DNA of 64,000 nucleotides, taken from NCBI GenBank assembly GCA_914767715.1, contig OU612072.1:7192001-7256000 (forward strand), written 5' to 3'. The DNA is from Membranipora membranacea. Taxonomy: Eukaryota > Bryozoa > Gymnolaemata > Cheilostomatida > Membraniporidae. The notes below the pieces were generated by a model, which ran no database searches, was not told the DNA's origin, and saw only the letters and a list, made by a program, of their open reading frames with translations. Shown here in pieces: positions 5,053 through 58,655 of this stretch; position 1 is the first letter of the stretch, and each line of letters begins with the position of its first letter. Made by a program: the position numbers and the translations under genes.

Positions 5053-5177
5053 TTATTTCAGTCTACAGTATGCAATCTTTGAAATTCCAGAAGACACTAC
5101 CAGCTGATCACCTTCTAGTTGGATATCCCTAGTTAATGAAATACCAAGCTTTAGGTCCAGTCCCTTTACAAAATGAC
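5053..5177 (-). CDS. Gene A exon 13: last propeller strands and C-terminus
   Basis: The acceptor is CTTTTTGAAG|GT and entry is phase 1, completing a Gly codon with the propeller exon. It encodes HFVKGLDLKLG...LEGDQLVVSS...YCRLK and stops at TAA. The stretch after KLG varies in sequence and by whole codons between the four copies (exons at 21200-21333, 36653-36780, 57479-57612), while the flanks LEGDQLV and RLK are conserved. It probably closes the last blade against the N-terminal strand of the propeller. Confidence 0.75.
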
Positions 5178-8100
5178 CTTCAAAAAGAAATTAAAATTAT
5201 CATATATCCCTAATATCCAGGTCAATTTTGTTATCAAGGATTGGGCTTGGTAATAGTGTAGAGTGTAAAAATTGTATGCTTGTCAGCTATCAAACGTAGT
5301 AGTTGAATTAGTTGAATATTTTTTGTTTATCTTAAAATATTGAGTTGACATTGCCAAATTATGTCGCTGCTTGTTTTTCCAATAATCATGACCTATGGTA
5401 AAGCGTTGTAGCTCAGGAACTGTCACAATTTCTAATTTGAGCAAACAAACAAGCATTGTGTAACACAGTCATTCTTACAACAATTTATCAGACATACCTG
5501 TGTTGATATCCAGTACAGAGATAGATGTGCCGGATGACTCTGCTACCAGCACATAGCGCTTAGCGTAACGTACTACAGCTTCCGGGATCCTCACATTAGT
5601 AGATGTCCACTCTATCTCTTCTGTAGTCAGGTTTAGCTTGTATACTTTGTGGGTGCACCAGTCAGTGATGATAACAGAGTCATCTCCAGCCTCACATATA
5701 CATGAGTTCCGGCTAAGCTGAGTACAGGGAATGTGTCTGATGATGTCACCAGTTAGTGAATACACAGTGAGCCTCTTATTAGAAACATCACATACTATCA
5801 CATGAGATCCTACTAAAGCTAACTTATTACCGTAATTAAAGGTACTGTCAGGATGATACCATGCGGTAATAAGCTGACCTAGCATATTAAAGATGCATAG
5901 TCTACTCTTATTCAGAATCGTCTGAATTACAAATATTTGATTATTTTTAGCTCTGATACTACCTGCAAATTCCCCTGATTGAAATGAAGTAAATTTAGTC
6001 TGGTTTCCCTGAGAATCAATCTGTGATATTGACCCCTTGAATCCTACATATGTCACACCTTTATACTGACAGATGGCCCTGGGAGTGTAGCCTAAAGATA
6101 ATGTTTTGATTGTATTTATAGCAGATGGTGGTTTGATATTTTTGAGCACAGACTGATTGTTGAGGCTGATTATGAAACTCTCTGCTGTTGCAAGCTTCAC
6201 CTCTATGTCTCTACTCTCATTCTCTGGAAAAAAATCTTAGAGTGATTAAAAATGCCTGATTTGATTGTCAAATGACCAAAATAATCTAAATAATATATTA
6301 CAATACATAATTTTAATTATTTGTATTAAAAGGATCTTTGACATGTGTATTTACCAGTATTAACCCATACCTTTGATAGTAAAGAACAAAAGAGTAGAAT
6401 GAACGTTTTTAGATAAAAATTGATTCAAATGGTGTACAAATTTTGGAAATCACTTTGAATGCGTAAATAAATTGGATTTTCGGTGTCCACTCAATTGGAT
6501 TCAAATCTAAGTTATATAAACACACCTTGGATAACAAATATTACCTGTTAGGAGAGGTTCTATAAGAGGGTTTGGTACAATGAGATCACTGTGCTGACTC
6601 TCCATCATTTCTGACAGCTTTCTCTCTATCTGGGTTTTCTTCTTCAGTAGAGAGATCTGAGGAAAAGAGAGTTTACATTACAGTGATACAGAGCTGCACA
6701 GGACCAGTACTCCCATATTTTAATCCCCGAAAATGATTTGTGATCTATAGTATCGAAATTGGATTTGTCTTCTCATTTGTGACAAGGAGCCCACAACTAC
6801 AGGTTATCTTCATAACATCAGGATTTTGTAAAAGATAATGGATGCAGATGAAATGGAGAGATGGATAAATATAAAAGTTCCCATGACAATCACTGATATG
6901 ATTGAAAGATTATTTGAAGAAGATTTTATCAAAAACACAGGATTATTGCGAAAGAATGAAGTAAATAATATGTGGACCCGCACTGTGTCCAGTATGGAAC
7001 TAATTTAAGAGGTTTGCATGGCTTGGAAAAGGCAAGACGAGTCTGCGTTCCACATACATCAACATGAATCCATTTGACAATTGACGCGTCCCAGGTAACA
7101 TGTGACTTGTGTTATCAACTTACCCGATTGCAGGGATCAAACATAACTCTGATTTTCTTCATCTCTTCACAGAAACCAGTATACTTGAGATTGTACTGAG
7201 ATACTGACTCCTTACTTTCTCTTCTTCTCTGTATATATTCAGCTTCCAGCTGTTTGTATTTCTCATTTATTGCCTGGATCTACAAACATTAGCAGGCGAA
7301 TGAATATAAGTAATGATTAACCATATCGTCATGAGAAAATACCATATCCATACTCATATCCTTACTCCTTGTAGCTGCCGAAACCAACATAAAAAAACCA
7401 TTTCAGTTCAGATCAACGAAATCAGAGACCAAAAACTAATCAATCACAGTTTTCTTGCCCAAGTTGTCATTGTCAACAAACAAAATTGAGATTAATCTAT
7501 AAAGGCTGGTAGAGAACAAAACTCTTCACCCTACAAGTTTGGCCCAGTGATTCCGTCTAATGCTGAGTCATGTCCCAAGATTGACAATTTTTAAGATACA
7601 GCTAAAATGGAACTTTTCCCTTCCAACAGATCTAAGATCACTATAGTAATTTTGTTTCAGTCTTTGAGGTTTTTTGATGTCCATGCACCCATTGTCTTCT
7701 GACAATCTAAATCCTTGAGACGAATGGTCCCTCAGCAGTGCCTGCAGACAATTCAGAGGCAAATTTACACACAGACCTGCTGATCACGAGTGTGATGTAT
7801 AGATCTTACTCCATCACCAGTCTCTTCATCCCATTGAGTCAGTAAATCTGAAGTCTGACTTATAACTTCAGTGAACCCTTCGAGTTTCCCTTCTGCACAA
7901 GATTTCAAAGGCTCCAGTGTGGACCGAATCCTTTCTGCAAGCTGGGAGAGTGGAATATACTTGTGTGATGAGCCTGTAACTATAACAAAAATAAAGTTTC
8001 GGATTCGGTAGTAAAATTTTATCAATAGCAGCAATTTAGTTAAATTATGACATTTCCTGAACTATATTGACATGGCGCTGGTCAATCCCAATTCAATAGT

Positions 8101-11100
8101 TTGAGATGCAAAATTAGGAAGAATACAAATTATGTGCCTCTTGTTAATATTTGGGAAATAAATGCAACAAATGTTGCAAAATTATTATTACCCAAACAGA
8201 ATGTGGTTGGTGAGTTTAGGCAGTTACAACAGAACATCTCACAACAGTTTTCACATCCCACAGATGATTGTTCTGCGAAGTGTATGCTACAAAATGTCCC
8301 TTCTTGTAGTGATATTGTGTCCGTGGACTGCGTATGATGAGCTGATGTTCTCCAGTTGTCTGTCCGGCCAACCATTGCAGCTTCATCTGTAAGCGATGGT
8401 GACTGGGCTATATCCATTATTGGTCGAACTAACTGCACTACCTGGTGAGGAGACACAATAAGCACGATGAATTTCAGGCTATTATTGTGGTGGCATTTGT
8501 ACATATAGAACAATTAAAAGGCATCAAATTTTATGGTGTAAAACTAGAGAAGAACCCCCAGTGATTTCATCGACTTCTATTTACTTCAAGCTGGGCTTAT
8601 GGCCGTGCATAAACACAAGATATTTGTAAAGCTGGTGGTACAATTTAGAGTTTTTGGAAATAGGTGGCTCATTATTGCCAGTTTATTACTTCTACCTTGC
8701 CCGCTGGCTTGTTGCCTGCTTGTTTACATGGCGGTCGACTCTGATTAGTCTCAATCAGCACACATTCATATTGTCTACTGTCAATGTTAGCATCAGCTTC
8801 AGGATGAAAACCTGTAAAAATCAGACAGGATTATTTAATGAGAACAATAGACCATGTGGTAAATCCTTATGGCTGCATGCCTGGCTTTTGAAGTGTGTAG
8901 AGTGCGTATGAGAGGACATTGTGGCATGTGGAAATCTTATCAAATAAAGGAAAAAAGAGAGGCAATTTGGAATTCATTTCAATGTAGGAAACCAGTCATC
9001 TCATATGGTAGAGAGTGTTACCAGTTTAAATTGAAGACAGAATACAATAAATTTGTGAAAATTGTCTATTGAGTATTTAAAATTTGAGCCTTTGAAAAGG
9101 GGCATTGATCTCTGCCTTAAATAAAAAAGCAAGATCCACCAGCTTACACTTTAGTCGGCTTAGTGTGAAATGAGCGCAGCAGCAAGAAAGAGCATGCTCT
9201 GCAATAAAGTTATTTTGACTTTACGTTAATTTAAAATAGGCGCCTCCATTTACGGTTCGATAGATTGATAAAGTGAATACATAATGATGGCGAGTCTCTA
9301 ACTAGCACTACATAAGCTGATGTTCTTTAAGACATAAAGATGACAATGGCAACAGGTGAATCAATTTTTTCCATGGTAATAATATTTAACTACATGTAAA
9401 GTATTATAACCTTGATGTGGAGAAGTGAGAGCAATGAGGCCTTCTGCTGCAAGGGTGGCTTCTGGTGTAGGAGGGTTACACAAATCAATGGATGATATAG
9501 AAAGGGGAGCAGGCATTCCCTCTCTGCCATACTCAGAGGGTGATATTGATAGATTTTTATCATCTGATAATGTCTCATCTGTCACCTGATGATGGAACTC
9601 ATCTGATGACAAGCTGAAGTTGGGCTGTGGTAAGAAAGAGTCAAAAAATCAGGGTAAGGGTTAAGAGATATCGAACAGTGTAATTAAAAGGACAACTCCA
9701 GACTGCCTGTCATTATATACCATGGGACATGCACAAGAGATTTTGGAGATTTGTACCAAACTCCCTAGAACAAGTTTAATCCGATTGCCTGCATTCCTGT
9801 TGCTCCATTCTACTGGTCACGCCGTGGATCGGGAGCGACTCAGAATGCAGTCAAATAGACCAAAGTTGGTCTACAAACTCCCTAACATGCACCGATAAAA
9901 AAGTTAGACTTGTAAGACTTCTGATAAATGAGGATTTGAATTTGAAAGTTTATATTAATCAGGGGCAGTTAGGCTAATATGGAATAATCCTCCCAAATGC
10001 AATCAAAGCATTCAAATATGACAGATTTGACAGATGTCAAATGTCACAGAAAACTTTACCTCAAGATTAAGAGCACTGTTATCATCTTCACCTTGGCATC
10101 TGCACATCTGATATTTAATGTTACACCGCTGACAGAGAGGTAGATTGTCATCATCACCGTCAGCGCCTTCAGGGGAAAGTTCAGTAACGGTTGTAGGCAG
10201 GTTGGAAGGTACTGTCTGTAATCAAGGGTTACACTTTTGTATACAGTTGAACATTCAAGGGAAAGGAAACTTGTATTCAAAGTTGATCGCGGTATGATAT
10301 CATAATATTATTTCACACTTTAACACTTTAATTTATTTAAAAATGCTGTTGGCTAGCAGTCTATCAAAACTCCTCCCATACTAGCAAGTTATGCACCCCC
10401 GACAGAAAGAGACAGATTTATAATGACAGCGATAATTTTTCAATTTGACGAAACAAATCTGTTCCACCCGACCTCTTGCTAAGCGATAAAAAACTGCAAT
10501 ACTTACTTCATCTTTTTTTTCTTTACAAATACAAGGTACGAAGTGGTTTGGCCTCCATTTCCCTTGATCCAGCAGATCAAAAGAGGATTCATCGGTGCTT
10601 GTCCAGCTAATGACATTTCTTCGAACAGCTGTCCCTTCAGGCTTGATGGTCCCAGAAAAGAGTTCTCTCTTTGTGTAAGAGTTGTTGTGGCTGGGATAAA
10701 TCACCTGTATTTCAACACTCAGATGTTGACTCAAAAAGAAGATGTCTACCATTGAGCTGTACTTTCTGGAATCGAGCATCGATCTGCTGTGGTTTTTAAT
10801 CGCCCTCACGGAATCTTTAGCGACAAAGTCAGCGATGGATGATTGTAGAATCATATCTAGGTCTTGTTCAGTAAGATCATTTCTGAATGTTTTTTTCAGC
10901 ATTGTCAGGTTTAAAAGGTTGGCATTGTTGTGCATAAATATGCAGTTTCTCACTCTGAGCTCGAATGCTTTGTCTTCAGAGCCAAAGAGCAACCAGCATA
11001 CAGAGTTGAAGAGGCAACTACCATCCTTACTAACATCAATCGGTATGAGATTTGTGACAGACTGGCGCCTAAAATAAAATATTGATGATTTGGTTAAAAT

Positions 11101-14100
11101 GCGGTTAAAATCACAAGGTTTCATATATATATATATATATACAATTTTATTGCATCAACCACCACCTGAAAATGTTCTCCCTCATGTGCAAAAAAAATCA
11201 ACAAAAACCAAGAAAATCAAGTTTAGCGATTCGTCAGAAATACTTTGCGCAGGTTTTGGAGTACCTAGAATCTCAAAATTCAATTTTTTTTGCATCATGT
11301 ACCCGCAAATTTAGTTATCTCAAACATATAGTTATATCTTATGAAATCTTGTCTTCCTATAAAGCTGCTCTTAGCTTGATGCTACATCAGGCAGTTTTCA
11401 ATCCTGAAACTAAATTCTGCAAGTTTTGGTGTACACCAACATAATAGTCCAGTGGCAGCCTACCAAAAATATGGCTAAAAACGCAAATTCATTTACGAAA
11501 TTGGATGCATAAATTCCAAGAGTGGATTCTAGGGTAGTTTTTTGAGGCGGTCGCAATGGTGATGATGTACCTTACACAAAGTTGCACAATAGGCAGCAAA
11601 TTGCCAAAAACGCTGCCAAAAATGGCCAAAATTGCTGTTCTTATGATATTTCAAAGGTCTGTCCCTTGCTCACCTTATGAGTTGCGCTGCTCAAACTCTG
11701 CAATCAGATTCATACATACCTTGGTCAGTTTTTGGTAAAATATCAGCATAATATCTCAAATATTGAGTGAATAACCAAGCTTATAAAAAGTGATAGAGTG
11801 AAAAACGCTGCCAAAAAAAGGGAAAGTGATGAAAAAAATGATGATATGGTTTCAAAACAGCCAAAATCTGAAAGCGCATGTCATAATTAGTGGATCTACA
11901 ACTTTACATGGGTCTGCTATCATAAATAGCCGAGATGTGGCCAACAACGGTTGCAATACCCCCCTATATCACCTGTATATAACTATCATTGAAACGACAC
12001 TACTTTTTCAATTTTGCAGACGCCTCGAGATCTGACTTTGAATATTCGTATTGATCTGATTTTATTATGGTGGTTTTGTATTGACTCAATCAATGACAAA
12101 ATAATTTTCTCTCAGCACTACGCAACTTCCTGATGATCCTTGAAGGAGTGAACTTTTGCTTTACACACTATATAACCTTGTAAAGACGACTATTATGATA
12201 CTATAAAGGAATCCTAAGAATACGCACTATCTCAAAAAAGACACACTCAGAGCATTGAAAACTGGTGTTATGCGATGGGAGGGTCAATACACAGTCACCA
12301 TACAAAAATCAGATCAATACAAACATTTGAAGCCTGTTTTATAGGCAGAAAAAGTAGTTTCACTTTAATGATAGTTATACACAGGTGATAGAAGGGGCAT
12401 TGCAACTGTTGTTGACCGCATCTCAGCTTTTTATGATAGCAGACCCATGTAAAGTTGTAGATCCACTATATTATGACATGCTCTTTTAGATTTTGGATGT
12501 TTTGAAACCATATCATCATTTTTTGATCACTTTCCCTTTTACCGGCAGCGTTTTTGGCAATTAGCGACCCATTGTGCAACTTAGTGTAAGGTACACTGTT
12601 ACCATTGCGATCAGCGTGAAAAACTGTACCAGTAACAACTGACAAACCTTATCCATCCAAAAGTGCAAATGGAAGTGACAAGATAGGCAGGGGCTGCCAC
12701 CGGACTATAACAACATCAATATTCCCAATTATTTACCATAATAATTATCAAAAGAGTCGAATGTAGCAAATTTCTTTTCATCATTGTCTGTATAATACGA
12801 ATGTTGCTGGGCATAGGTTGAATTGGATTCAAACCAAAACTTGACATACTCTAGAATTTGCAAGACGACAACTTTACCATTCCACAGATGCTTAAAACAG
12901 CTAGATTAGGCTAGCTAACAAATACACACCTACTTTATTCTATATAAGCTCCCGTGCCACCTAATGAGCTAAATTAAACTCTAGCCAACTAGACAAACTC
13001 TAGCTAACAATTACACACCCACTTAAGCCCAGATAGACTCCAACCCCAACTAACTATTAACAAGTTAACTCAGACTCTAGCTAACATTAACTAGCATATG
13101 TAGCCCTACATATCAACAAGAAAAATACTTTACCTGAATATCTTCTCAGTGACTCTATCCACATTTACATTGCGCGCCTTTGTACTAACAGCGATTGGGA
13201 CGTGAAAAAACTGATCAGCCTGAAAATAAAAACACCTGATATAGCATGATCTCAAAGCTAAGCAAGAATTTGGACATCATATTGGCTAAGAATCTAATAA
13301 ATAAAAATACTCACTGCGGGTAGGGCGTTGGACCAGTCCTCCTGTGTTTTGAGAGTGTCTGCCAGCTCCCTAAAGTCTAACTTCCCCGGACACCTGGGAC
13401 TTTGAAAACCTACAAAGGCCAAAATATTTTTCTGGTTTAGACTGGAATACAGAATATTTAATTTTTTTCAAGGAGACAAACTCGCTGACTTTGTAGAGCT
13501 TTCCTATATTCAATTACTTGATCATCTCTGTGGAACCATTAAAATTCCGATATCACATAAAGCATATCTACCAAAGTGTTTAAATATAAGGTACAGGATG
13601 TGAGATAGTATATACAGATGCCTTATTAGGAAGTCTATTTTTAATTGGACCAGCTGCCATACTATTCCTCTATTGATATGGCTTCAGTGGGATTTACTAG
13701 ATCTAGATCTAAAGAGCAATAAAAATGTGTGACCAAGGAGTTATCCTTTGATTGATTCACTGAAAAATCACTCATTTTATCTTGGTCAGCAACCTCGACT
13801 GTTTTTATTCAAACTTTACTAAACACACGAATCTTAAATATTTACCCTCATCCTGATGTTCTCCAGATACTTTGCTCGGGACTCGCGATTTTTCTTCTTT
13901 TGGCCTATCACCGGGTTTGTGCCTTTTCCGTGACAATAAGGCGGGAGATGAGTCGTATTTGGCCCAAATTTCATTCCTTTTACTTTTGATATTATAAACT
14001 GTGCGCTCAGCTATTCCGTACTCCTTCGTAATGTCATCCACAGTGAACCCCTGATTAATCTTACCCAAAATCTCAATTTTCTGTTTACCACTTAGATCCT

Positions 14101-14134: not shown

Positions 14135-14190
14135 GATGTTTGTTGATTCACTCTATAATCTAAAAAGATGAAGAAAATACTTAAATATTG

Positions 14191-14216: not shown

Positions 14217-16149
14217 TACCACCGATCACAATCTAAGCGACCAATCCATTTGTAACAACTAATTACAACTCTCTACAGGCTTTGATATGAATTTATGGAT
14301 CAGTGGTGAAATACATAACGTGGCTATTTGTAAAGATTTGCCATCAGTAAAAAGCTTTGTGTGAGGATCACACTGCTTGCAGATTGATTTGTGATACGAG
14401 TCTCTCTGCACGGTAGCGTTTGTATTCATCCAAAGGTGCTTGAGTTCCCAGTTCTCCAGTTCTGGTGGGATGACTTTTCTGTTTGATAACTCGCGCACAT
14501 TTGAATTGATTCAGTCGCTACGGTGCAAAGATATCCAACCTATATTGATTGGTGCACATGCGCATAGTGGTCAGGATCTAAATAAAGCTATCTGGCAGCT
14601 TTTACGTTACGCATTTGACGTCCCAGTAACAACCTTGAAAAACCAAGGCAAGCTGCTTGACCAATGTTTACAACTGTCCGCAGTGATAGTTTCTAAACTT
14701 GTGGACCAATCAAAGATGCGGTCCAGCAACCAATACATAAATAGCCATAGCTTTCTCAAGATCAGTTACATACTCCTCATCCAAATAATAAAATGTATCA
14801 GTGTCTACAGGCGTAGGATTGACCCTTTGATTGGATGTTTCCATAAGTTCTAGTCAAATAACTGCATCGATCGACCCAAGCAAGAAACTCCTTGATCCAA
14901 GTCAACAGACAATTTTGTATTATGATAAGTAAACTAGGCTGCCCCTCAATATCAAACACAGACAGCATGTCACTGACAGCATGTCACTGACAGTTGATTT
15001 GATCAGTGACCCGTCTTTCAGTGCCACAAGCTGCCGCCTTACTTACTGAACAGCTGCGGTACTGGGAGTACGAGCTTGATTCATTTCTTTGAATAGCATT
15101 GTAGGGAGAAACCTTAAAATCAAGGCAAATATTATCTAGCCTACCTCCACCTGACCTAGATATATCAGCTGATAAGAAGCTCAGTTGATGATCTCCCTCC
15201 CCAAAACCCTCCCCCCCCCCCTCCCGCAATGTATGTGTTAGAGAAAGCAATCAAATAAACGAACAGAATGTGTAGCTTTGTGTAGACACATCAGATATCA
15301 CCGATTCACGGCTTACCGTCTGACTTACTGTGGTCTCAGAGCTTCCTAAGCTATTGAATCCTCAGTGTAACGTTTGACATACAGAAGCCTGATGCTACTC
15401 AGTACAAGCAATGAGTATTTATAATCTTTGGTACAAGTGTTGGCCTAACTCTGTGCGGTCTACTAACACGATAAATAGAACACTGCTATGTGACTGTGAA
15501 GTGAGCTATAAAGTCAATGATGCAATAATAGACTTTGGTCCAACAGGAACATGTAATACAGGATTGTTAGTGATGAAAAACTGATTATTATAGCAACTTT
15601 TTATAAAGTGTTATCAAATCTTAGGCTAGAAAAGTGAGTCAGGGGATTTCCCAAATAGATGACGCCATCCATTGAACAACATTCTAAATGTGACAAAGAA
15701 GTTTAATGCTAATAGACAGTTAATATTCAGTTAATCTTCATTCATTCTGCCAGTGTAATCCATACTTCATATTGACAAGGATAGAATCTAATTGTTGTTG
15801 ATGGTATATCATTGCCCCTGTACGCTAAAACCTATCAACGGACAACGGCTAATGTACCATCCGGAAACAGCCCCTGACCAATTTGAAATATTGCATATGT
15901 TCCATCAGTTTATTATATTGTGAGGCATTCCAACAGGTTACAATATTGTAAGTTTTTTACGGAGGAAAATGTGCAATGCTTCAACAGCACCACAGTAGCC
16001 AGAAAAGCGAAGCATATGTATCTGAGTTGAAGTGATCATTCAACATTTTTAGTTACAATTCCTTCAAACCCATACAAACACCTTTTATTTCCTTAGAATT
16101 CACTGCAAGGCTGCTAAAATACTGGAGTCATCAGTTAAATTCCCAGATT

Positions 16150-20397: not shown

Positions 20398-21663
20398 ACC
20401 TAGCTTGGTAAATAAATATGCAAGACCTCAACTAACTGGATTTGGTCCTCAGTTGTTGTGTTATTCCTGGTTGCGGATTGACTCTAAATTAAAAAAAAAA
20501 ACATTCAAATTTAACATGTAGTATTATTATTGAGCCTTTCAAGATTAAAATTGAACTATCGAAATGGCCAACTGACTGTGGTATCATGGTATTTTATTGA
20601 AGGCGTAACCGTGGCCTGTAAGATTACAAACATTGTTACGACAGAACGGGACAAAATTAAAACATTATAAAATAAGTAATTAAGAGCCTTCTGGACATTC
20701 GAAAATAGCATATAATTAAAGTGCACATATAAGGAAATGTCAAGATAAAGATCTCAAAGATTAATAACAGTTCTCACAGATAAACCACTCTATCAAGCGA
20801 AACATTAGCCACCTACAGATGTAAATACCAAACACTCCACTCAACCTCTTTGGCCTGCCAGACTGTGTCTGAATCGAGTAACACTAGTAGCACGAAGATT
20901 TGAGTGGATGGATTACTATTCCTATCTGATAAAGCAAGAGTTCTGAGTTAAAAATCTACGAAATAGTTGTGTACACTTAATGTGCTATTCTATCATGGTC
21001 TAAAAGTGAATTTTGATTTAATCAAAAATCTTAATCATATATCTTCCCTCTCGTCAAAAAAGACAATTGAAGATGGATGGTACAGTAAATTTATTATCAT
21101 AGTCAGTGAAAAGACATCTACCGTCTCTGGTTATATATATGTGTGCTGTTATAATTATTGTATAAATAACGATATAAAATAGTTTAATCATTGTATAAAC
21201 TACTTCAGTCTGTAGTATATAATCTGATCTGGATCCCTGGAAGACAATACCAGCTGATCACCTTCTAGATGGATATCCATAAGCCAAGTATATGAATTAC
21301 CAAGATCTAGGTCCAGATTCTTCACATAATTACCTTCAAAAAGAAATTAAAATTATCATAAATCCCTAATATCCAGGTAAATTTGGTAACCAAGGATTAG
21401 GCTTTGTATTTAGAGTGTATTGTAGAGTGGAAAAATTCTTCAGCTGTCAGGTGTTAAGAAAGAGCATGTATTAGTTAATATTTTGTTGCATCTTGAAAAT
21501 ACAGAGTTAACGATGCCTTATTATTATTATGTCAGAGCTTAATTGTCTAATAATCTTGGTAATCCAGGAACTTCGGAGCATTTTGCGACAATCTTTAACT
21601 TGAGCAGACAGAAAAGCATTGCATAACAATAATATGCTCCCTACAATAATTTATCAGACATAC

Positions 21664-22392
21664 CTGTGTTGATATCCAGTACAGAGATAGATGTGCTGTA
21701 GAAATCTTTTACCAGCACATAGCGCTTAGCGTAACAAACTACAGAGGCCGGGCGCATCACATGAGTAGATGTCCACTCTATCTCTTCTGTAGTCAGGTTT
21801 AGCTTGTATACTTTGCTGGTCCACCGGCTATTGATGATAACAGAGTCATCTCCAGCCTCACATATATATGAGCTCCAGCTAAGCTGAGTACAGGGAATGT
21901 GTCTGATGATGTCACCAGTTAGTGAATACACAGTGAGCCTATTATTAGATACATCACCTACTATCATATGAGATCCTAATAAAGCTAACTTATTACAGAT
22001 ATTACAGTGACTACTGTCAGGATGATACCATGAGGTAATCAGCTGACCTAGCATATTATAAATGCATAGTCTACTCTTATTCTGAATCATCTGAATTACA
22101 AATATATGATTATTTTTAGCTCTGATACTATCTACACGTCCCTCTGATTGTAAAGAAGTAAATATTGTCTGATTTCCCTGAGAATCAATCTATAATATTA
22201 ACCCCATGGATTCTACATATGTCACACCTTTATACTGACAAATGGCCGAGGCATAGTAGTCTAAAGACAATGTTTTGATTGTATTTGTAGCAGACGGTGG
22301 TTTGATATTTTTGAGCACAGACTGATTGTTGAGGCTGATTATGAGACTCTCTGCTGCTGTAAGCTTCACCTCTATATCTCTACTCTCATTCT
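21664..22392 (-). pseudogene. Propeller exon of gene A' (contains TAG)
   Basis: This 729-nt exon is homologous to 5498-6223. TAG at 22192-22190 replaces the Gln codon of the SISQIDSQGN motif. The loop variants are closest to gene B of unit 3 (SSHCNICNK, RPASVVCYAKRY), not to gene A. Confidence 0.75.
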
Positions 22393-23275: not shown

Positions 23276-26200
23276 TTACATGTTGTACCGTAGACATACA
23301 AATAGACAGTTTTCTGAGCTCTGATTTAGGCTTGAAAAAGACAAGACGAGTCTGCGTTCCACATACATCAACATGAATCCATTTGACAATTGACTCGTCC
23401 CAAGTAACTTGTGATTTGAGTTATCAACTTACCCGATTGCAGGGATCAAACATATCTCTGATTTTCTTCATCTCTTCACAGATACCAGTATACTTGATAT
23501 TGTACTGCGATACTGACTCCTTACTTTCTCTTCTGTTCTGTATAAATTCAGCTTCCAGCTGTTTGTATTTCTCATTTATTTCCTGGATCTACAAACATTA
23601 GCACGCGAATGAATCTAAGTAATGATTGACCATATCGTCATGAGAAAATACTTCGCTCATATCCTTACTCCTTGTAGCTGCCGAAACCAACATCAAAACC
23701 ATTTCAGTTCAGATCAACGAAATCAGAGACCAAAAACTAATCAATCACAGTTTTCTTGCCCAAGTTGTCATTGTCAACAAACGAAATTGAGATTAATCTA
23801 TAAAGGCTGGTAGAGAACAAAACTCTTCACCCTACAAGTTTGGCCCAGTGATTCCGTCTAATGCTGAGTCATTTCCCAAGATTGACAATTTATAAGATAC
23901 AGCTAAAATGGAACTTTTTCCTTCCAACAGATCTAAGATCACTATAGTAATTTTGTTTCAGTCTTGGAGGTTTTTTGATGTCCATGCACCCATTGTCTTC
24001 CGACAATCTAAATCCTTGAGACGAATGGTCCCTCAGCAGTGCCTGCAGACAACTCAGAGGCAAATTTTCAAACAAACCTGCTGATCACGAGTGTGATGTA
24101 TAGATCTTACTCCGTCATCAGTCTCTTCATCCCATCGAGTCAGTAAATCTAAAGTCTGACTTATAACTTCAGTGAACCCTTCGAGTTTCCCTTCTGCACA
24201 AGATTTCAAAGGCTCCAGTTTGGACCGAATCCTTTCTGCAAGCTGGGAGAGTGGTATATACTTGTGTGATGAGCCTGTAACTATAACAAAAATAAAGTTT
24301 CGGTTTCGGTAATAAAATTTTATCAATAGCAGGAATTTAGTTAAATTATGACATTTCTTGAATTATATTGACATGGCGCTGGTCAAACCCAATTCAATAG
24401 TTTGAGATACAAAATTAGGAAGAATACAAATTATGTGCCTCTTGCTAATATTTGGGAAATAAATGCAACAAATGTTGCAAAATTATTATTACCCAAACAG
24501 AATGTGGTTGGTGAGTTTAGGCAGTTACAACAGAACATCTCACAACAGTTTTCACATCCCACAGGTGATTGTTCTGCGCTGTGTATGCTACAAAATGTCC
24601 CCTCTTGTAGTGATATTGTGTCCGTGGACTGCGTATGATGAGCTGATGTTCTCCAGTTGTCTATCCGGCCAACCATTGCAGCTTCATCTGTAAGCGATGG
24701 TGACTGGGCTATATCCATTATTGGTCGAACTAACTGCACTACCTGGTGAAGAGACACAATAAGCACGATGAATTTCAGGCTATTATTGTGGTGGCAACTG
24801 TACATATAGAACAATGACAAGGCATCAAATTTTATGGTGTAAAACTAGAGAAGAACCGCCAGTGATTTCATCGACTTCTATTTACTTCAAGCTGAGATTA
24901 TGGCCGTGCATAAACACAAGATATTTGTAAAGCTGGTGGTAGAATTTAAAGTTTTTGGAAAAAGGTGGCTCATTGTTGCCAGTTTATTACTTCTACCTTG
25001 CCCGCTGGCTTGTTGCCTGCTTGTTTACATGGCGGTCGACTCTGATTAGTCTCAATCAGCACACATTCATATTGTCTACTGTCAATGTTAGCATCAGCTT
25101 CAGGATGAAAACCTTTAAAAATCAGACATGATCATTTAATGAGAACAATACACCATGTGGTAAATCCTTATGGCTGCATGCCTGGCTTTTAAAGTGTGTA
25201 GAGTGCGTATGAGAGGGCTTTGTGGCACACTATAGCATGTGGAAATCTTATCAAATAAAGGAAAAAAGAGAGGCAATTGGGAATTCATTTCAATGTAGGA
25301 AACCGGTCATCTCATATGGTAGAGAGTGTTACCAGTTTAAATTGAAGACAGAATACAATAAAATTGTGAAAATTGTCTATTGAGTATTTAAAATTTGAGC
25401 CTTTGAAAAGGTGCATTGATCTCTGCCTTTAATAAAAAAGCAAGATCCACCAGCTTAAGCTTTAGTCGGCTTATTGTGAAATGAGCGCAGCAGCAAGAAA
25501 GAGCATGCTCTGCAATAAAGTTATTTTGACTTTATGTTAATTTAAAATAGGCGCCTCCATTTACGGTTCGATAGATTGATAAAGTGAATAGATAATGATG
25601 GCGAGTCTCTAACTAGCACTACATAAGCTGATGTTCTTCAAGACATAAAGATGACAATGGCAACAGGTGAATCAATTTTTTTCATGGTAGTAATATTTAA
25701 CTATATGTAAAGTGTTATAACCTTGATGTGGAGAGGTGAGAGCAATGAGGCCTTCTGCTGCAAGAGTGGCTTCTGGTGTAGGAGGGTTACATAAATCAAA
25801 GGATGATATAGAAAGGGGAGCAGGCATTTCGTCTCCGCCATGCTCAGAGGGTGATATTGATAGATTCTTATCATCTGATAATGTCTCATCTGTCACCTGA
25901 TGATGGAATTCATCTGATGACAAGCTGAAGTTGGGCTGTGGTAAGAAAGAGTCAAAAAATCAGGGTAAGGGTTAAGAGTTGTCGGAACATTGTAATTAAA
26001 TGGACAACTCCAGACTTCCTGTCATTATATACCATGGGACATGCACAAGGGATTTTGGAGATTTGTACCAAACTCCCTAGAACAAGTTTAATCCGATTGC
26101 CTGCATTCCTGTTGCTCCATTCCACTGGTCACGCCGTGGATCGGGAGCGACTCGGAATGCAGTCAAATAGACCAAAGTTGGTCTACAAACTCCCTAACAT

Positions 26201-27184: not shown

Positions 27185-28341
27185 AACAGTCCAGTGGCAG
27201 CCTACCAAAAATATGGCTAGAGATTCAACTTCATTTACGAAATTGGATGCATAAATTTTAAGAGTGGATTCTTGGGTAGTTTTTTTGAGGCGGTCGCAAT
27301 GTTGATGATGTACCTTACACAAAGTTGTCCCGTGCTCACCTTATACTCAAACTCTGCAATCAGATTCATACACACCTTGGTCAGTTTTTGGTAAAATATC
27401 AGAATGACCAATCTTATAAAAAGTGATAAAGTGAAAAACGCTGCCGAAAAAAGGGAAAGTGATGAAAAAATAATGATATGGTTTCAAAACAGCCAAAATC
27501 TGAAAGCGCGTGTCATAATTAGTGGATCTACAAATTTACATGGGTCTGCTATCATAAAGAGCCTAGATGTGGCCAACAACGGTTGCAATACCCCCTTATA
27601 TCACCTGTATATAACTATCATTGAAACGACACTACTTTTTCAATTTTGCAGACGCCTCGAAAACTGACTTTGAATGTTCGTATCGATCTGATTTTTTGAT
27701 GGTGGTGTTGTATTGACTCAATCAAAGACAAAAAATTTTTTTCTCAGCACTACGCAACTTCCTGATGATCCTTGAAGGAGTTATCTTTTGCTTTACACGC
27801 TATATAACCTTATAAAGACGATTTTTATGATACTATAAAGGAAACCTAAGAATACGCACTATCTGAAAAACGACACACTCAGAGCATTGAAAACTGGTGT
27901 TATGCGATGGGAGGGTCAATACACAGTCACCATACAAAAATCAGATCAATACGAACATTCGAAGCCTGTTTTTTAGGCAGAAAAGGTAGTTTCACTTTAA
28001 TGATAGTTATACACAGGTGATAGAAGGGGTATTGCAACTGTTGTTGGCCGCATCTCAGCTTTATATGATAGCAGACCCATGTAAAGTTGTACATCCACTA
28101 ATTATGACATGCTCTTTCAGATTTTGGATGTTTTGAAACCATATCATCATTTTTTTATCACTTTCCCTTTTACCGGCAGCGTTTTTGGCAATTAGCGGCC
28201 CATTGTGCAACTTAGTGTAAGGTACATTGTGACCATTGCGATCAGCGTGAAAAACTGTACCAGAAACAACTGACAAACCTTATCCATCCAAAAGTGCAAA
28301 TGGAAGTGACAAGATAGGCAGGGTCTGCCACCGGACTATAA
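27185..28341. mobile_element. Foldback-type TIR element in gene A' intron 3
   Basis: This is the orthologous copy of 11443-12710. CAACAT flanks both ends (27179-27184 and 28342-28347). It is about 110 bp shorter because internal left-arm sequence (unit 1 about 11585-11770) is partly missing. The inverted arms are still clear (e.g. TGGATCTACAAATTTACATG near 27522 and its complement near 28085). Confidence 0.68.
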
Positions 28342-36652: not shown

Positions 36653-39600
36653 CTACTTCAGTCTGTAGTATATAATCTGATCTGGATCCCTGGAAGACAA
36701 TACCAGCTGATCACCTTCTAGTTGGATATCTGTAGTATATGAATAATCAAGCTTTAGGTCCAGATTCTTCACATAATTACCTTCAAAAAGAAATTAAAAT
36801 TATCATAAATCCCTAATATACAGGTAAATTTGGTAACCAAGGATTAGGCTTTGTATTTAGAGTGTATTGTAGAGTGGAAAAATTCTTCAGCTGTCAGGTG
36901 TTAAGAAAGAGCATGTATTAGTTAATATTTTGTTGCATCTTGAAAATACAGAGTTAACGATGCCTTATTATTATTATGTCAGAGCTTAATTGTCTAATAA
37001 TCTTGGTAATCCAGGAACTTCGGAGCATTTTGCGACAATCTTTAACTTGAGCAGACAGAAAAGCATTGCATAACAATAATATGCTCCCTACAATAATTTA
37101 TCAGACATACCTGTGTTAATATCCAGTACAGAGATAGATGTGCTCCAGATATCTGCTACCAGCACATAGCGCTTAGCGTAACAAACTACAGAGGACGGGC
37201 GCATCACTTGAGTAGATGTCCACTCTATCTCTTCTGTAGTCAGGTTTAGCTTGTATACTTCGTTAGTGTTGTAGTTAGTGATGATAACAGAGTCATCTCC
37301 AGCCTCACATATACATGAGTCATAACTAAGCTGAGTACAGGGAATGTGTCTGATGATGTCACCAGTTAGTGAATACACAGTGAACCTCTTATTAGATGCA
37401 TCACCTACTATCACATGAGATCCTAATAAAGCTAACTTATTACAGATATTACAGTGACTACTGTCAGGATGATACCATGAGGTAATAAGCTGACCTAATA
37501 TATTATAAATACATAGTCTTCTCTTACTCATAAAATTCTGAATTACAAATATTTGATTATTTTTAGCTCTGATACTATCTACACGTTCCCCTGATTGTAA
37601 AGAAGTAAATATTGTCTGATTTCCCTGAGAATCAATCTGTAATATTGACCCAATGGATCCTACATATGTCACACCTTTATACTGACAGATGGCCCAGGGA
37701 TAGTCGTCTAACGATAATGTTTTGATTTTATTTATAGCAGATGGTGGTTTGATATTTTTGAGCACAATGTGATTGTTGAGGCTGATTATGAAACTCTCTG
37801 CTGCTGCAAGCTTCACCTCTATGTCTCTACTCTCATTCTCTGGAAAAAAATCTTAGAGTGATTACCAATGCCTGAGTTGATTGTCAAATGACCAAAATAA
37901 TCTAAATAATATATTACAATACATAATTTTAATTATTTGTATTAAAAGGATCTTTGACATGTGTATTTACCAGTATTAACCCATACCTTTGATAGTAAAG
38001 AACAACAGAGTAGAATGAACGTTTTTAGATAAATATTGATTCAAATGGTGTACAAATTTTGGAAATCACTTTGAATGCGTAAAAAAAATGGATTTTCGGT
38101 GTCCACTCAATTGGATTCAAAGCTAAGTTATATAAACACACCTTGGATAACAAATATTACCTGTTAGGAGAGGTTCTATAACAGTGTTCGGTACAATAAG
38201 ATCCCTGTGCTGACTCTCCATCATTTCTGACAGCTTTCTCTCTATCTGGGTTTTCTCCTTCAGTAGAGAGATCTGATGAAAAGAGAGTTTACATTACAGT
38301 GATACAGAGCTGCACAGGACCAGTACTCCCATATTTTATTACCGAAAATGATTTGTGATCTATAGTATCGAAATTGGATTTGTCTTCTCATTTGTGACAA
38401 GGAGCCCACAACTACAGGTTATCTTCATAACATCAGGATTTTGTAAAAGATGAATGGATGCAGATGAAATGGAGAGATGGATAAATATAAAAGTTCCCAT
38501 GACAATCACTGATATGATTGAAAGATTATTTGAAGAAGATTTTATCAAAAACACAGGATTATTGCGAAAGAATGAAGGAAATAATATGTGGACCCGCACT
38601 GTGTCCAGTATGGAACTTATTTAAGAGATTTGCATGGCTTGGAAAAGGCAAGACGAGTCTGCGTTCCACATACATCAACATGAATCCATTTGACAATTGA
38701 CGCATCCCAAGTAACATGTGACTTGTGTGATCAACTTACCCGATTGCAGGGATCAAACATATCTCTGATTTTCTTTATCTCTTCACAGATACCAGTATAC
38801 TTGATATTGTACTGAGATACTGACTCCTTACTGTCTCTTCTTCTCTGTATATATTCAGTCTCCAGCTGTTTGTATTTCTCATTAATTTCCTGGACCTACA
38901 AACATGATCGGGATGATGGTAAACGCCCGCACAGGCAAATATTGATTAAAATTCATAGCTGATTACCAAATTCAAACCTAGGGGACAGATATTTATTCTT
39001 GAATAGTTTTCAACTTTGATAAGTTTTAAAGTTGATTTACAAGTAAAAAACAATCCTGCATACCTGCTCTCCTCGGACACGACGAATAGAGCTCAATCCG
39101 TCTTCAGTCTCTTTATCCCACGGAAAGAGAATATCTGAAGTCTCACTTATCACATCAGTGATATTTCTGTATTTCTCCTCCACTCTCGCTTTCAGAGGAT
39201 CCAGATTGCATCGAGCTTCCACTGCAAGCCTGCCCAGTTGAGGGAGCTCATGTGACATATCTGAGGGATAGGTGGAAGTCCTGAATAAGTTTCTCTCGGG
39301 AGACATTTTCACTGTTACTGATCGACGGATAGGATATATTTTAGTTAATTTAATTAATTTAATTATATTTAACACATTTCTCACTAGATTGATGTGCTAG
39401 ACTGTTAAAGCTTTTAATCGGAACAGATTTGCTATTAACATAGACGATTTTGTGGCCCAACGCATTTATAAACTAGCCACCGATTTTATTGAGTTCAATG
39501 ATCACATTTTAAATCATTGTTATAGTTGTCAAAGGAGTAATTACATAATGCCTAAGATACGTACAAGCAGATTTTTACAGAATTTTGTACCAACTAGTAT

Positions 39601-43433: not shown

Positions 43434-43930
43434 TTCCACAGAATGCCAAATCCAAAGTTAGTAAGCAATAGTAATACTGCGTCCTGCTGTCTCAAACTTC
43501 TCCTGTTAAATGAACTAGCAGTTTACTAAAACTTCTATTGCGCTTGATCAGTGTAATCAATAGTATATTGTCGTGTGTAAGGGAACAATGATGAATCGTC
43601 CCTCAAATAATTAAAATTGCGTAAGATATCAGTCTACATAACAGGGAAGTTGGATTTTCCATGATGAGTCATAACTATAAGGCTCACAAACAATCCAATA
43701 AGTGGAACGTAATGAAACAAAGGCAAATTCATATCACAAGACCTAGTTATAATTTTTAAGGCCCACAACCCACACACTCTTTCGAAACGAAACTGCATTG
43801 ATAGTGAAATGTGACAATAAATGTATATTTCTGGCCCAATCAGTTACATATTGATAATTTCTTAGCATGCAGTCACATCTATCCAGGACCATCTATCCTA
43901 CTAACCATCATGGCTATCGTGTGGCTTACG
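43434..43930. other. Gene B 5' flank / junction with gene A'' remnant
   Basis: This is the upstream region of gene B. At about 43930-43950 it passes abruptly into the middle of the gene A'' propeller exon (at LGQ). I see no exon here. Confidence 0.6.
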
Positions 43931-44489
43931 GATGGTTACAGCAAAATGCTGACCTAGCATATTATAAATACAAAGTCTTCTCTCACTCTTATAATTCTGA
44001 ATAACAAATATTTGATTATTTTTAGCTCTGATACTCTCTACACGTTCCCCTGAATGTAAAGCAGCAAAAATTTTCTGATTTCCCTGAGAATCAATCTGTG
44101 ATATTGACCAAATGGATCCTACATATGTAACCCCTTTATACTGACAGATGGCCCAGGGAGTGTAGCCTAAAGATAATGTTTTGATTGTATTTATAACAGA
44201 GGGTGGTTTGATATTTTTGAGCACAGACTGATTGTTGAGGCTGATTATGAGACTCTCTGCTGCTGTAAGCTTCACCTCCATGTCTCTACACTCGGTAACT
44301 GGAAAACAAGAATCTTTTTACAATCCCAGAGCTGATTGGTGAGACAGTATGACTAAAATCATTATTTACATGACAAATATGGTGATTATAATACGATAGT
44401 TATTATCAACGGTAATCCTGCAGCTGTTTCTCTCAATAATCCAAATGGAAAAACATAAAAGAACAGTGCTGACTTTTTGACAAGCAAGC

Positions 44490-45280
44490 ATTCAAATACG
44501 GTGGCAGCCTATGCAAAATGTGGCTAGAAATACAACTTCAGTTACGAGTTTGGATCGATAAGGCTGTCAGTTGTTTCTGGAACAATTTTTCGCACTGAAC
44601 ACAATGGTAATATTGTACCTTACACTTAGTTACACAAGAGGCCGCTAATTGTCAAAAACGCTGCCAGTAAAAGGGAAAGTGATCAAAATATGATGATATG
44701 GTTTGAAAATATTCAAAATGTGAAAGAGCATGTCATAATTAGTGGATCTACAACTTTACATGGGTCTGCCATCATAGATAGCCAAGATGCGGCCAACAAC
44801 GGCTGCAATACCCTTTACATCACCTGTATAATTATCATTGAAATTTCAATTTTGCAGTCGCCTCTAAAACTGACTTCAAATGTGTGTATCGTGCATCAAA
44901 GACCAAAAATATTTTTGCAGCACTACGCACCTTTTTGGTTATACTTGAAGGAGTTAATATTTGCTTTACACGCTATAAAACCTTATAGGAACCTACTATA
45001 ATAGAAACTTCAAATTACACGCTATTCGAACAACGACACACTCAGATCATTGAAAACTGTTATACGATGGGAGAATCAATACAATGTCACTATAAAAAAA
45101 TGAGATCAGTACGAACATTCAAAGCCAGCTTTTTAGGCAGCAGCATTGATGAAAAAGTAGTTTTGCTTTAATGATAGTTATATACAGGTGATATAAGGAT
45201 TATTGCAACCGTTGTTGGCCGGATTTTGGCTAATTATGATAGCAGACCAATGTTAAGTTGTAGATCCATTGATAATAACA
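44490..45280. mobile_element. Diverged, 3'-truncated TIR element in gene A''
   Basis: It begins at CGGTGGCAGCC and carries AACGCTGCC..AAAGGGAAAGTGATC and TGGATCTACAACTTTACATG, like 11443-12710, then the beginning of the opposite arm (ACAGGTGATATAAGG at about 45186). It stops at about 45278, where gene intron sequence resumes. It is more diverged from the 11443 and 27185 copies than those are from each other, so it is a separate insertion. Confidence 0.6.
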
Positions 45281-47917
45281 TCAGGATTTTGTTGAAGATG
45301 AATTAATGCAGTTGAAAGGGAGAGATCGGCAAATATAAAATTCACTGATATGTTTGAAAGATTGTGTAAAGAAGATTTAACCAAAAACACAGGATTATTG
45401 CGAAAGAATGAAAGGAAATATGCAGACCCGCACTGTGTCCAGGACGGGACTACTTTGAGAGATATGCATTGCTTGAAAAAGACAAGAAGAATCTTTATTC
45501 CACATGCATCAACGTCTCAAGTTACATGTAACTTGAGTTAGCAACTTACCCGATTGCAGGGATCAAACATATCTCTGATTTTCTTCATCTCTTCACAGAT
45601 ACCAGTATACTTGATATTGTACTGAGATACCGACTCCTCACTTTCTCTTCTTCTCTGTATATATTCAGCTTCCAGCTGTTTGTATTTCTCATTTATTGCC
45701 TGAATCTACAAACATTAGCAGGCGAATGAATATAAGTAATGATTAACCATATCGTCATGAGAAGATACTTCGCTCATATCCTTATTCCTTGTAGCTGCCG
45801 ACCCCAAGATCAAAACCATTTCAGTTCAGATCAACGAAACCAGAGACCAAAAACTAATCAATCACAGTTTTCTTGCCAAAGTTGTCATTGTCAACAAAAG
45901 AAATTGAGATTAATCTATAAAGGCTGGTAGAGAAGAAAACTCTTCACCCTACAAGTTTGGCCCAGTGATTCCGTCTAATGCTGAGTCATTTCCAAAGATT
46001 GACAATTTATAAGATGCAGCTAACTTTTTCCTTCCAACAGATCTAAGATCACTATAGTAATTTTGTTTCAGTCTTTGAGGTTTTTTTGATGTCCATGCAC
46101 CCATTGTCTTCCTAAAATCTAAATCCTTGAGACGGATGGTCCCTCAGCAGTGCCTGCAGACAACTCAGAGGCAAATTTTACACATCAACCTGCTGATCAC
46201 GGGTGTGATGTATAGATCTTACTCCGTCACCAGTCTCTCCATCCCATCGAGTCAGTAAATCTGAAGTCTGACTTATAACTTCAGTGAACCCTTCGAGTTT
46301 CCCTTCTGCACAAGATTTCAAAGGCTCCAGTTTGGACCGAATCCTTTCTGCAAGCTGGGAGAGTAGTATATACTTGTGTGATGAGCCTGTAACTATAACA
46401 AAAATACAGTTTCGGATTCGGTAATAAAATTTTATCAATAGCAGCAATTTAGTTAAATTATGACATTTCTTGAATTATATTGACATGGCGCTGGTCAAAC
46501 CCAATTCAATAGTATGAGATGCAAAATTAGGAAGAATACAAATTATGTGCCTCTTGCTAATATTTGGGAAATAAATGCAACAAATGTTGCAAAATTATTA
46601 TTACCCAAACAGAATGTGGTTGGTGAGTTTAGGCAGTTACAACAGAACATCTCACAACAGTTTTCACATCCCACAGATGATTGTTCTGCGCTGTGTATGC
46701 TACAAAATGTCCCCTCTTGTAGTGATATTGTGTCCGTGGACTGCGTACGATGAGCTGATGTTCTCCAGTTGCATGTCCGGCCAACCATTGCAGCTTCATC
46801 TGTAAGCGATGGTGACTGGGCTATACCCCCTATTGGTCGAACCAACTGCACTACCTGGTGAAGAGACACAATAAGCACGATGAATTTCAGGCTATTATTG
46901 TGGTGTCAACTGTACATATAAAAAAAAGACAAGGCATCAATTTTTATGAGGTAGAAGCGGATATTTCATCGACTTCTTTCAACATGAAGCTTACGGCCAT
47001 GCATGGATACAAGACATTTGATAAGCTGGTAGTAGAATTTAACATTTTTGGAAAAAGGTGGCTCATTATTGACAGTTTATTACTTCTACCCTGCTCGCTG
47101 GCTTGCTGACTGTTTGTCTATACGGCAGACGACTTGGACCATCCTCGGTCTGTGAAGATTCATGTTGTCTCCAGTCGATATTAACTACAGCTTTAGGATG
47201 AAAATCTGTAAAAATCAACAAGGATCATTTAATCGAGAACAAAAAACTATGTGGGAAATCCTGATGGCTGCATGTGTGGTTTTTGAAGTGTGTAGGGTGC
47301 TTATGAGATTGGGCACTGTGGTGCACTACAGCTTGTGCAAATCTTATCGAATACAGGAAAAAAGAGAAGCAATTAGGAGTTCATTTCAATGTAGGAGACC
47401 AGTCATCTCATATGGTAGAGAGTGTTACCAGTTTAAATGGACGACAGAATACAATAAAAATGTGAAAATTGTCTATTGAGTATTCAAAATTTGAGCTTTT
47501 GAAGAGATGCAGTGATCTCTGCCTAAATAAAAAAAACAAGATCCACCAGCTTACGCTTTAGTCGGCTTATTGTGAAATGAGCGCGGCAGCAAGAAAGAGC
47601 ATGCTCTGCAATAAAGTTATTTTGACTTTATGTTAATTTAAAATAGGTGCCTCCAATTACGGTTCGATAAATTGATAAAGTGAATACATAATGATGGCGA
47701 GTCTCTAACTAGCACTACATAAGCTAATGTTCTTCAAGACATAAAGATGACAATGGCAACAGGTGAATCAATTTTTTCCATGGTAATAATATTTAACTAT
47801 ATGTAAAGTGTTATAACCTTGCTGTGGAGAGGTGAGAGCAATGAGGCCTTCTGCTGCAAGAGTGGCTTCTGGTGTAGGAGGGTTACATAAATCAAAGGAT
47901 GATATAGAAAGGGGATA

Positions 47918-48419
47918 TAAAGGAAACCTAAGAATACGCACTATCTGAAAAACAACACACTCTGAGCATAAAAAACTGGTGTTATGCGATGGGAGGGTCA
48001 ATACACAGTCACCATGCAAAAATCAGATCAATACGAACATTCGAAGCCTGTTTTTTAGGCAGAAAAAGTAGTTTCACTTGAATGATAGTTATACACAGGT
48101 GATAAAAGGGGTATTGCAACTGTTGTTGGCCGCATCTCAGCTTTTTATGATAGCAGACCCATGTAAAGTTGTAGATCCACTATATTATGACATGCCCTTT
48201 CAGATTTTGGATGTTTTGAAACCATATCATCATTTTTTGATCACTTTCCCTTTTACCGGCAGCGTTTTTGGCAATTAGCGGCCCATTGTGCAATTTAGTG
48301 TAAGGTACATTGTTACCATTGCGATCAGCATGAAAAACTGCACCAGAAACAACTGACAAACCTTAACCATCCAAAAGTGCAAATAGAAGTGACAAGATAG
48401 GCAGGGGCTGCCACCGGGT
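47918..48419. mobile_element. Right half of the intron-3 TIR element in gene A''
   Basis: It corresponds to unit 2 positions about 27836-28333. The left half, exon 5 and part of exon 6 are gone. The right end is also clipped: CTGCCACCGG runs straight into GTCGAATGTAGC. Confidence 0.7.
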
Positions 48420-56695: not shown

Positions 56696-57929
56696 TTGGT
56701 AAATAAATATACAAGACCTCAACTAACTTGATTTGGTCCTCAGTTGTTGTGTAATTCCTGATTGCGGATTGACTCTAAATTGTGTGCATATAATTAGTAA
56801 TTAAAAACAAAATATCCAAATATAACATATAATTATTATTGAGCCTTTCATGATAAAAATTCAACTATCGAAATGGCCAACTGACTGTGGTACCATGGTA
56901 TTCTATTGAAGGCGTAACCTTGGCCTGTAAGATTACAAACACTGTTACAACAGAATGGGATCAAATTAAAACATTATGAAATTAGTATTTAAGAGCCTGG
57001 TTGACATTCAAAAGTAGCATAGAATTAGAGTGCACGTATAAAGAAATGTCAAGATAAGATTGGTCTCAAAGATTAATCAAAGTTGTCCCCCCTCGCAGAT
57101 AAAAACATCAAGTGAAGCAGTAGCATACATACAGATGTTAATATAATGCACTCCACTTAATCCAAACCTCTTGGGCCCTAGAATGCATGAAGGTTTGAGT
57201 GGATGGATTACTACTCCTATCTGAATAAGCAGGAGCTCGGAGTTAAACTATACACTATGTATGCGTTTTACTTAGTCTTAAAGTGAACATTGATTTAATC
57301 AAAAAATCCTCATTATATATCTTCCATCTAACAAAAAAAAACAATTGAGGATAGATGATACAGTGAATTAATAATCAGAGACAGTAAATAGATATCAGCT
57401 AATGTCTCTGATTATATAGGTATATGCTGTTATAATTATTGTTTATATCAATATAAAATCATTCAATCATTGTTTAAATTATTTCAGTCTACAGTATGCA
57501 ATCTGATTTGAAAATGCAGAAGACACTACCAGCTGATCACCTTCTAGTTGGATATCCATAATCCGTGGAGTTCTGATGTCGAGGTCGAGGTCCAGTCCCT
57601 TTACAAAATGACCTTCAAAAAGAAATTAAAATTATCATAAATCCGTAATATCCAGGTCAATTTTGTTATCAAGGATTGGGCCTGGTAATAGTGTAGAGTG
57701 TAAAAATTGTATGCTTGTCAGCTATCAAACGTAGTTGAATTAGTTGAATATTTTTTGTTTATCTTAAAATATTGAGTTGACATTGCCAAACTATGTCGCT
57801 GCTTGTTTTTCCAATAATCATGACCTATGGTAAAGCGTGGTAGCTCAGGGACTGTCACAATTTCTTATTTGAGCAGACAAACAAGCATTGTGTAACAGAG
57901 TCATTCCTACAACAATTTATCAGACATAC

Positions 57930-58655
57930 CTGTGTTGATATCCAGTACAGAGATAGATGTGCGGGAGAGATCTGCTACCAGCACATAGCGCTTAGCGTAA
58001 CGTACTACAGCTTTTGGGACCCTCACATGAGTAGATGTCCACTCTATCTCTTCTGTAGTCAGGTTGAGCTTGTATACTTTGTCGGTGCACCAGTCAGTGA
58101 TGATAACAGAGTCATCTCCAGCCTCACATATACATGGGTAATTGTTAAGCTGAGTACAGGGAATGTGTCTGATGATGTCACCAGTTAGTGAATACACAGT
58201 GAGGCTCTTATTAGGTTCATCACCTACTATCACATGAGATCCTACTAAAGCTAACTTATTACAGAAATTAACGGTACTGTTAGGATGATACCATGAGGTA
58301 ATAAACTGACCTAGCATATTATAAATACATAGTCTTCTCTCCCTCTTATAATTCTGAATTACAAATATTTGATTATTTTTAGCTCTGATACGCTCTACAA
58401 GTTCCCCTGATTGTAAAGAAGTAAAGATTGTCTGATTTCCCTGAGAATCAATCTGTGATATTGACCCAATGGATCCTACATATGTAACCCCTTTATACTG
58501 ACAGATGGCCCTGGGAGTGTAGCCTAAAGATAATGTTTTGATTGTATTTATAGCAGATGGTGGTTTGATATTTTTGAGCACAGACTGATTGTTGAGGCTG
58601 ATTATGAAACTCTCTGCTGTTGCAAGCTTCACCTCTATGTCTCTACTCTCATTCT
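57930..58655 (-). CDS. Propeller exon of gene B' (open)
   Basis: This 726-nt exon is open. The framework matches gene A exon 12 very closely (e.g. LGYTPRAICQYKGVTYVG, HVR.P.AVVRYAKRY) although the 5' half of the gene is type B. Loop differences from gene A: SIG, NYKRER, STVNFC, EPNKSL, NNYP, DWCTDK and LSRT. Confidence 0.72.

Follow-up and report, generated by a model that had tools for sequence, protein, structure and literature searches.

The window analysed here, 64,000 nucleotides of contig OU612072.1 of the bryozoan Membranipora membranacea (G000:C8:7192001-7256000, in an assembly of 339,339,785 bases), is built from tandem units of ~16 kb that are 84-99% similar over long stretches. Each unit carries a multi-exon gene on the minus strand, in which a long propeller exon and a short last exon follow coiled-coil-like exons and, in some units, a B-box-like exon; these TRIM-NHL-like genes and the variable loops of their propellers are the subject of this work. 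The four propeller exons (copies A to D, see the table) lie exactly at the coordinates given by the initial annotation, all flanked by AG/GT splice sites. That annotation has to be corrected in copy B, which contains an in-frame stop codon, and a fifth, truncated copy (E) is additionally present. The window belongs to an array at C8:7.10-7.31 Mb that comprises 11 full and 4 truncated propeller copies, c02 and c06 being nearly identical duplicates. Related propellers occupy at least 183 places in the genome, many of which belong to arrays; this figure is made up of the best 150 of 412 candidates from a first search and the places listed only by a second one (best 150 of 371), 23 of which lie on C11 (2.2-2.7 Mb) and 10 on C8 (16.4-16.9 Mb). 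Further arrays were located at C11 2 Mb, C8 16 Mb, C6 and C10, and an array on chromosome 2 (C2:20.84-22.60 Mb) has no fewer than 57 full propeller copies, whose orientation changes from minus (copies up to 21.13 Mb) to plus (copies from 21.24 Mb). The chromosome 2 sample covers 40 of these 57; all 40 come from the 45 plus-strand copies, so that the 12 minus-strand copies are unrepresented. The window array and the chromosome 2 array share only about 35% identity.

The AlphaFold model of the copy D propeller exon (mean pLDDT 82.8) is a propeller whose closest structures are the NHL domains of Brat and Mei-P26. The genes end in a six-bladed NHL-type propeller, the feature of the TRIM-NHL proteins, subfamily C or class VII in the accessible text of the TRIM classification (PMC3503706). 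The NHL match needed a profile search: Pfam gave only weak propeller matches on single exons and phmmer found no match for one copy against the PDB. The exon GCENCCEMFCCNCL and the B-box region of P0019, a protein of the bryozoan Watersipora subatra (NCBI/UniRef), share 42% identity in an alignment of 36 columns (E 2e-4 to 4e-4); the best E value of the exon for Pfam zf-B_box is 1.7. The exon is present in 7 of the 11 full copies of the window array, and searches of the 10-kb loci of c04, c08, c11 (copy C) and c13 (copy D) did not reveal it. Charged exons are in register with the coiled-coil region of P0019, and it is by this likeness that they are called coiled-coil-like; such exons are also present upstream of the chromosome 2 copies. 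The propeller of P0019 is about 30% identical to those of the window. P0019 differs in having its own N-terminal cysteine-rich region, RING-like by eye although Pfam detects no RING there at E 0.1; this region (residues 1-91) remained unmatched in a tblastn search of P0019 over the window, where a divergent or distant exon is still possible. The splice from propeller exon to last exon is supported by P0006 and P0007, two database proteins from other samples, probably derived from cDNA, because both run unbroken over the predicted junction (NTG followed by HFVKG). By analogy, the gene anatomy resembles that of a cytosolic TRIM-NHL protein.

Among the 11 full copies the differences in the propeller exon do fall in the two series of clusters that the initial annotation had described: nonsynonymous differences per site (pN) amount to 0.253 in the 26 columns of series 1 and 0.304 in the 24 columns of series 2, and to 0.040 in the other 194 columns. 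A cluster overlooked earlier, at model residues 48-53 (SLGYTPRA / SLDDYPWA), extends series 2 one blade upstream. The proposed period of ~42 residues is borne out by the autocorrelation of residue entropy at lags 41-42 and 84-86, and a spectral peak at 21 residues indicates two variable loops per blade. None of 2000 residue shuffles attained the window-array peak, and 16 of 2000 shuffles of eight-residue blocks did; the 40 chromosome 2 copies gave lags of 42 and 84, with 0 of 2000 residue and 13 of 2000 block shuffles reaching the peak. The framework DNA is nearly identical, as had been claimed, with no nucleotide difference in LTTEEIEWTST and two variants of GDIIRHIPCTQL among the 11 copies. 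The description as a near-invariant scaffold holds within the exon and the 500 nt of upstream intron (nucleotide diversity pi about 0.03) but fails downstream, where pi is 0.13-0.27. This step means that the neutral background is not uniform, and a uniform background was rejected as a yardstick for the exon. Length variation of the last exon after LDL is present as noted before and also occurs after VVSS/VLSS (the c01 match is partial).

The two series correspond to the BC and DA loops, and propeller topology places both loop types on one and the same face. In the window array entropy is 0.836 bits in the loops of this variable face vs 0.098 bits in those of the other face. On the predicted structure the variable sites are, with a few exceptions, concentrated on one face, and variability in the chromosome 2 array falls on the same face.

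Pairwise pN/pS ratios (pS, synonymous differences per site) were obtained from Nei-Gojobori counts with bootstrap on nine window-array copies, c02 and c10 being excluded; all 11 copies agree. The ratio is 1.83 (1.20-3.22) for the variable face, against 0.24 for the opposite one; the BC loops have 2.53 (1.41-6.72), the strands 1.14 (0.58-2.52) and the whole exon 1.25 (0.85-1.85). A separate count at the clusters of the window array gave 2.74 in series 1 and 1.62 in series 2, the loops of the latter having raised pS. For the other exons, pN and pS are 0.012 and 0.015 in the B-box exon (6 copies), 0.010 and 0.021 in CC1a (6 copies), 0.035 and 0 in CC1b (4 copies), 0.044 and 0.062 in CC2 (10 copies), and 0.031 and 0.086 in CC3 (10 copies).

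Purpose-written site models (M1a vs M2a, on a FastTree topology with relative branch lengths fixed and optimisation limited) gave twice the log-likelihood difference as 187 for the window array (10 copies), with 21% of codons at omega 8.2, and as 358 for the chromosome 2 array (38 of the 40 copies), with 16% of codons at omega 5.2. Posterior probabilities above 0.9 were reached by 30 and 19 sites, respectively; 22 of the 30 and 14 of the 19 are in DA or BC loops, 7 and 4 in strands and none, in either array, in AB or CD loops. Exchange between copies can inflate single-tree site models, so the pairwise counts and separate trees for pieces of the exon were added. With three pieces on their own trees, all three were significant at p <0.05 in both arrays; with six, five were positive in the chromosome 2 array and three in the window array. 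The control piece before the first loop (codons 1-40) gave no selection signal in either array.

Exchange between copies is indicated by the PHI statistic, which lay under all 1000 permutations in both arrays. Mean incompatibility in the window array starts at 0.19 for distances within 15 bp and levels off near 0.6 once they exceed 50 bp; in the chromosome 2 array it climbs more slowly, from 0.42 to 0.68. A GENECONV-like test (global p <0.05) found shared tracts of about 80-520 nt in 5 of 45 window-array pairs and 21 of 780 chromosome 2 pairs, although the pairs are non-independent and such tracts are also left by recent duplication. Several loop variants are shared out of register: one of BC2 by copies 13 and 16, one of BC4 by 4 and 15, another of BC4 by 1 and 13, and a pair of DA45 plus BC5 by 10 and 15. 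The 3' parts of c06 and c13 show 95% identity, yet c06 has the B-box-like exon and c13 the divergent exon CC1b; judged from such comparisons, the gene halves are mosaic among copies. L042 and L043 (C8:7.156 and 7.183 Mb), truncated copies almost identical to each other, have a shorter propeller exon and readable loops that equal no full copy's set; they are possible conversion donors.

P0001, P0006 and P0007, three database sequences of unstated species that come from other samples, were compared with the 11 full copies. They match 91-97% of framework residues (108-115 of 119; 58-62 of 64) and 46-70% of loop residues, a contrast that arises partly by construction, since the loops were defined as those variable in the array. 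None of the three repeats the full loop set of any of the 11 copies. This suggests, short of proof of polymorphism, that different animals or close species carry different repertoires.

The initial annotation had proposed diversifying selection, or conversion, on one propeller face. Both processes were detected, with both series on the same face, and the one-face selection signal together with the positive recombination tests indicates that selection and short-tract exchange both act. Our reading, to which we assign a probability of about 0.72, is that these are tandem TRIM-NHL-like genes with one propeller face diversified by selection and conversion, and that their products are probably intracellular sensors of pathogens or non-self. 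We infer the recognition role, as well as ligand, immune function and output: a face selected to differ among copies on a homogenised frame is best explained by changing non-self ligands. Several observations qualify this picture. A few variable sites depart from the concentration on one face. The expectation of dN/dS above 1 at the loops of one face stood for the clusters of the window; for the DA loops the interval includes 1 (1.54, 0.88-3.30), and the averages of the chromosome 2 array are below 1, with 0.87 (0.60-1.26) on the variable face, 0.93 in BC, 0.85 in DA, 0.33 on the other face and 0.56 over the whole exon, so that individual sites above 1 appear there only in the site models. Finally, of the suggested cassette-like conversion the exchange is upheld by the PHI and GENECONV-like tests, but the lengths of the shared tracts argue against discrete cassettes.

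These pooled ratios of the chromosome 2 array, together with the stop in copy B and the four truncated copies, would suit relaxed constraint, under which a duplicated propeller would accept changes in its surface loops with nothing selecting for them; loops are, after all, more variable than strands in most proteins. We consider this very improbable, as the other-face loops are nearly invariant in the window array, pN exceeds pS in series 1 and in the BC loops, and the site model fits an omega near 8. The recombination signal, the shared tracts, the raised pS in series-2 loops and the mosaic of N-terminal types and propellers could likewise come from conversion only, with divergent donors importing blocks of differences into a homogenised exon and no selection on amino acids. 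However, imported blocks should carry both types of change equally, whereas pN in series 1 is 2.7 times pS, and the same structural face is variable in two arrays of such low identity, which makes this explanation unlikely. Similarly small is the chance that the hypervariable face serves allorecognition, telling self from other colonies at contact or fusion as fungal het genes do: the animal is colonial and Podospora het-d/het-e offers, in the accessible part of its description, a precedent of single-face propeller diversification with exchange (PMC1805685), but the domain make-up is like that of cytosolic TRIM proteins and there are several large arrays instead of one polymorphic locus.

If the reading as selected non-self sensors is right, the top face would be a ligand platform formed by the DA and BC loops of every blade. 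Non-allelic gene conversion would homogenise the frame and shift pieces of about one to several blades among copies, and selection for new specificities would maintain the loop differences. The proteins would probably sense pathogen or other non-self molecules (protein or RNA) inside the cell; the coiled coil may join them together, and signalling or ubiquitination may proceed through partners, because no RING was found in the window.

Table. Parts of the propeller genes within the window (positions counted from its first nucleotide).
Feature	Position	Strand	Remark
Copy A (c06) propeller exon	5498..6223	-	open reading frame; blades 1-5 of NHL-type propeller
Copy A last exon (HFVKGLDL...CRLK stop)	5053..5177	-	presumed blade 6, two further variable loops
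Copy A coiled-coil-like exon CC3 (ISLLK...)	6545..6656	-	
Copy A coiled-coil-like exon CC2 (IQAINEK...)	7124..7279	-	
Copy A exon CC1a (VTGSSHKYIPL...)	7810..7980	-	
Copy A B-box-like exon (GTFCSIH...GCENCCEMFCCNCL)	8190..8441	-	almost same in all copies having it
Copy B (c10) propeller exon	21664..22392	-	in-frame TAG at alignment column 67
Copy B last exon	21200..21333	-	
Copy B B-box-like exon	24491..24742	-	
Copy C (c11) propeller exon	37111..37839	-	
Copy C last exon	36653..36780	-	
Copy C divergent first coiled-coil-like exon CC1b	39097..39261	-	about 50% identical to CC1a
Copy E (t12) truncated propeller open reading frame	43901..44317 (about)	-	homology stops in blade 2
Copy E B-box-like exon	46603..46854	-	upstream of truncated propeller
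Copy D (c13) propeller exon	57930..58655	-	copy used for structure model
Copy D last exon	57479..57612	-	
Copy D divergent first coiled-coil-like exon CC1b	59914..60078	-	

The window has other features as well. Upstream of copy A, an open reading frame at 10381-11154 (-) is like an OTU cysteine protease (Pfam OTU E 1e-4, just under the cut-off), and a part of this region, about 10538-11122, is without a counterpart in the next unit. Upstream of the copy C exons, the reading frame at 43032-43457 (-) has an ATG near its start and a CENP-B/transposase-like helix-turn-helix (HTH_Tnp_1 E 2e-4, under the cut-off). Short exon-like stretches repeating the motif SVSS...VPTP...AAE...QQG are found upstream of copies C and D (40776-42248 and 61878-63342, minus strand), and the motif also occurs upstream of copy A near 9400-9520. 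A conserved reading frame on the opposite strand is present in two units (14395-14853 and 30030-30464, plus strand) with no Pfam match, and an element of ~300 nt, possibly a small transposon, occurs in both orientations within the units (12317-12661, 27915-28186, 44549-44891 and 47997-48375).

The closest precedents, by analogy and as far as the accessible parts of both sources go, are the B30.2 loops of finTRIM (PMC2657112) and the WD propellers of het-d/het-e (PMC1805685). finTRIM of teleost fish is likewise a large duplicated TRIM family with positively selected loops in a C-terminal ligand domain, and recombination has been considered for it. That domain is B30.2 there, whereas here it is an NHL-type beta-propeller varying in the loops of one face, and no RING was found. 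In the HNWD non-self recognition genes het-d/het-e of Podospora, the positively selected residues lie on the beta-propeller's interaction face, pieces are exchanged among members and the frame is conserved. With the exceptions mentioned, the genes described here equally combine selected residues on one face with exchange between paralogues. In HNWD highly conserved WD-40 units are exchanged within and between NACHT-domain genes; here paralogous exons exchange, in a gene with B-box- and coiled-coil-like exons, and the blades are mutually unlike by eye in the window-array alignment, in contrast to the near-identical WD repeats. TRIM-NHL propellers bind, or are presumed to bind, through their top surface, with RNA as the ligand in Brat and LIN41, according to the accessible text of PMC9634614 and the titles of structure entries.

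TRIM-NHL proteins with such a propeller, such as Brat, Mei-P26, Thin, TRIM2, TRIM3 and TRIM71, are products of single developmental or neuronal genes, in contrast to the tandem arrays with a hypervariable face seen here. No TRIM-NHL family with a diversified propeller face and no bryozoan TRIM expansion appeared among the top-ranked results of the open-access literature (titles and abstract starts), and to our knowledge little is known about how bryozoans recognise pathogens or one another. It is possible, at slightly less than even odds in our estimate, that Bryozoa possess a germline-encoded combinatorial repertoire of TRIM-NHL propellers, with loops shuffled by short-tract conversion and sets differing among individuals, in which each of the at least 183 propeller places could present up to twelve loops on one face. 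If true, animals would have an equivalent of the propeller repertoire of fungi; this would be a type of immune system not described for Bryozoa in the literature searched, and a large receptor repertoire whose binding surface can be read straight from sequence. The NHL propeller, best known as a developmental platform for RNA and protein, would then have been recruited to rapidly evolving recognition, and one-face propeller diversification, known in fungi, would have arisen in animals too.
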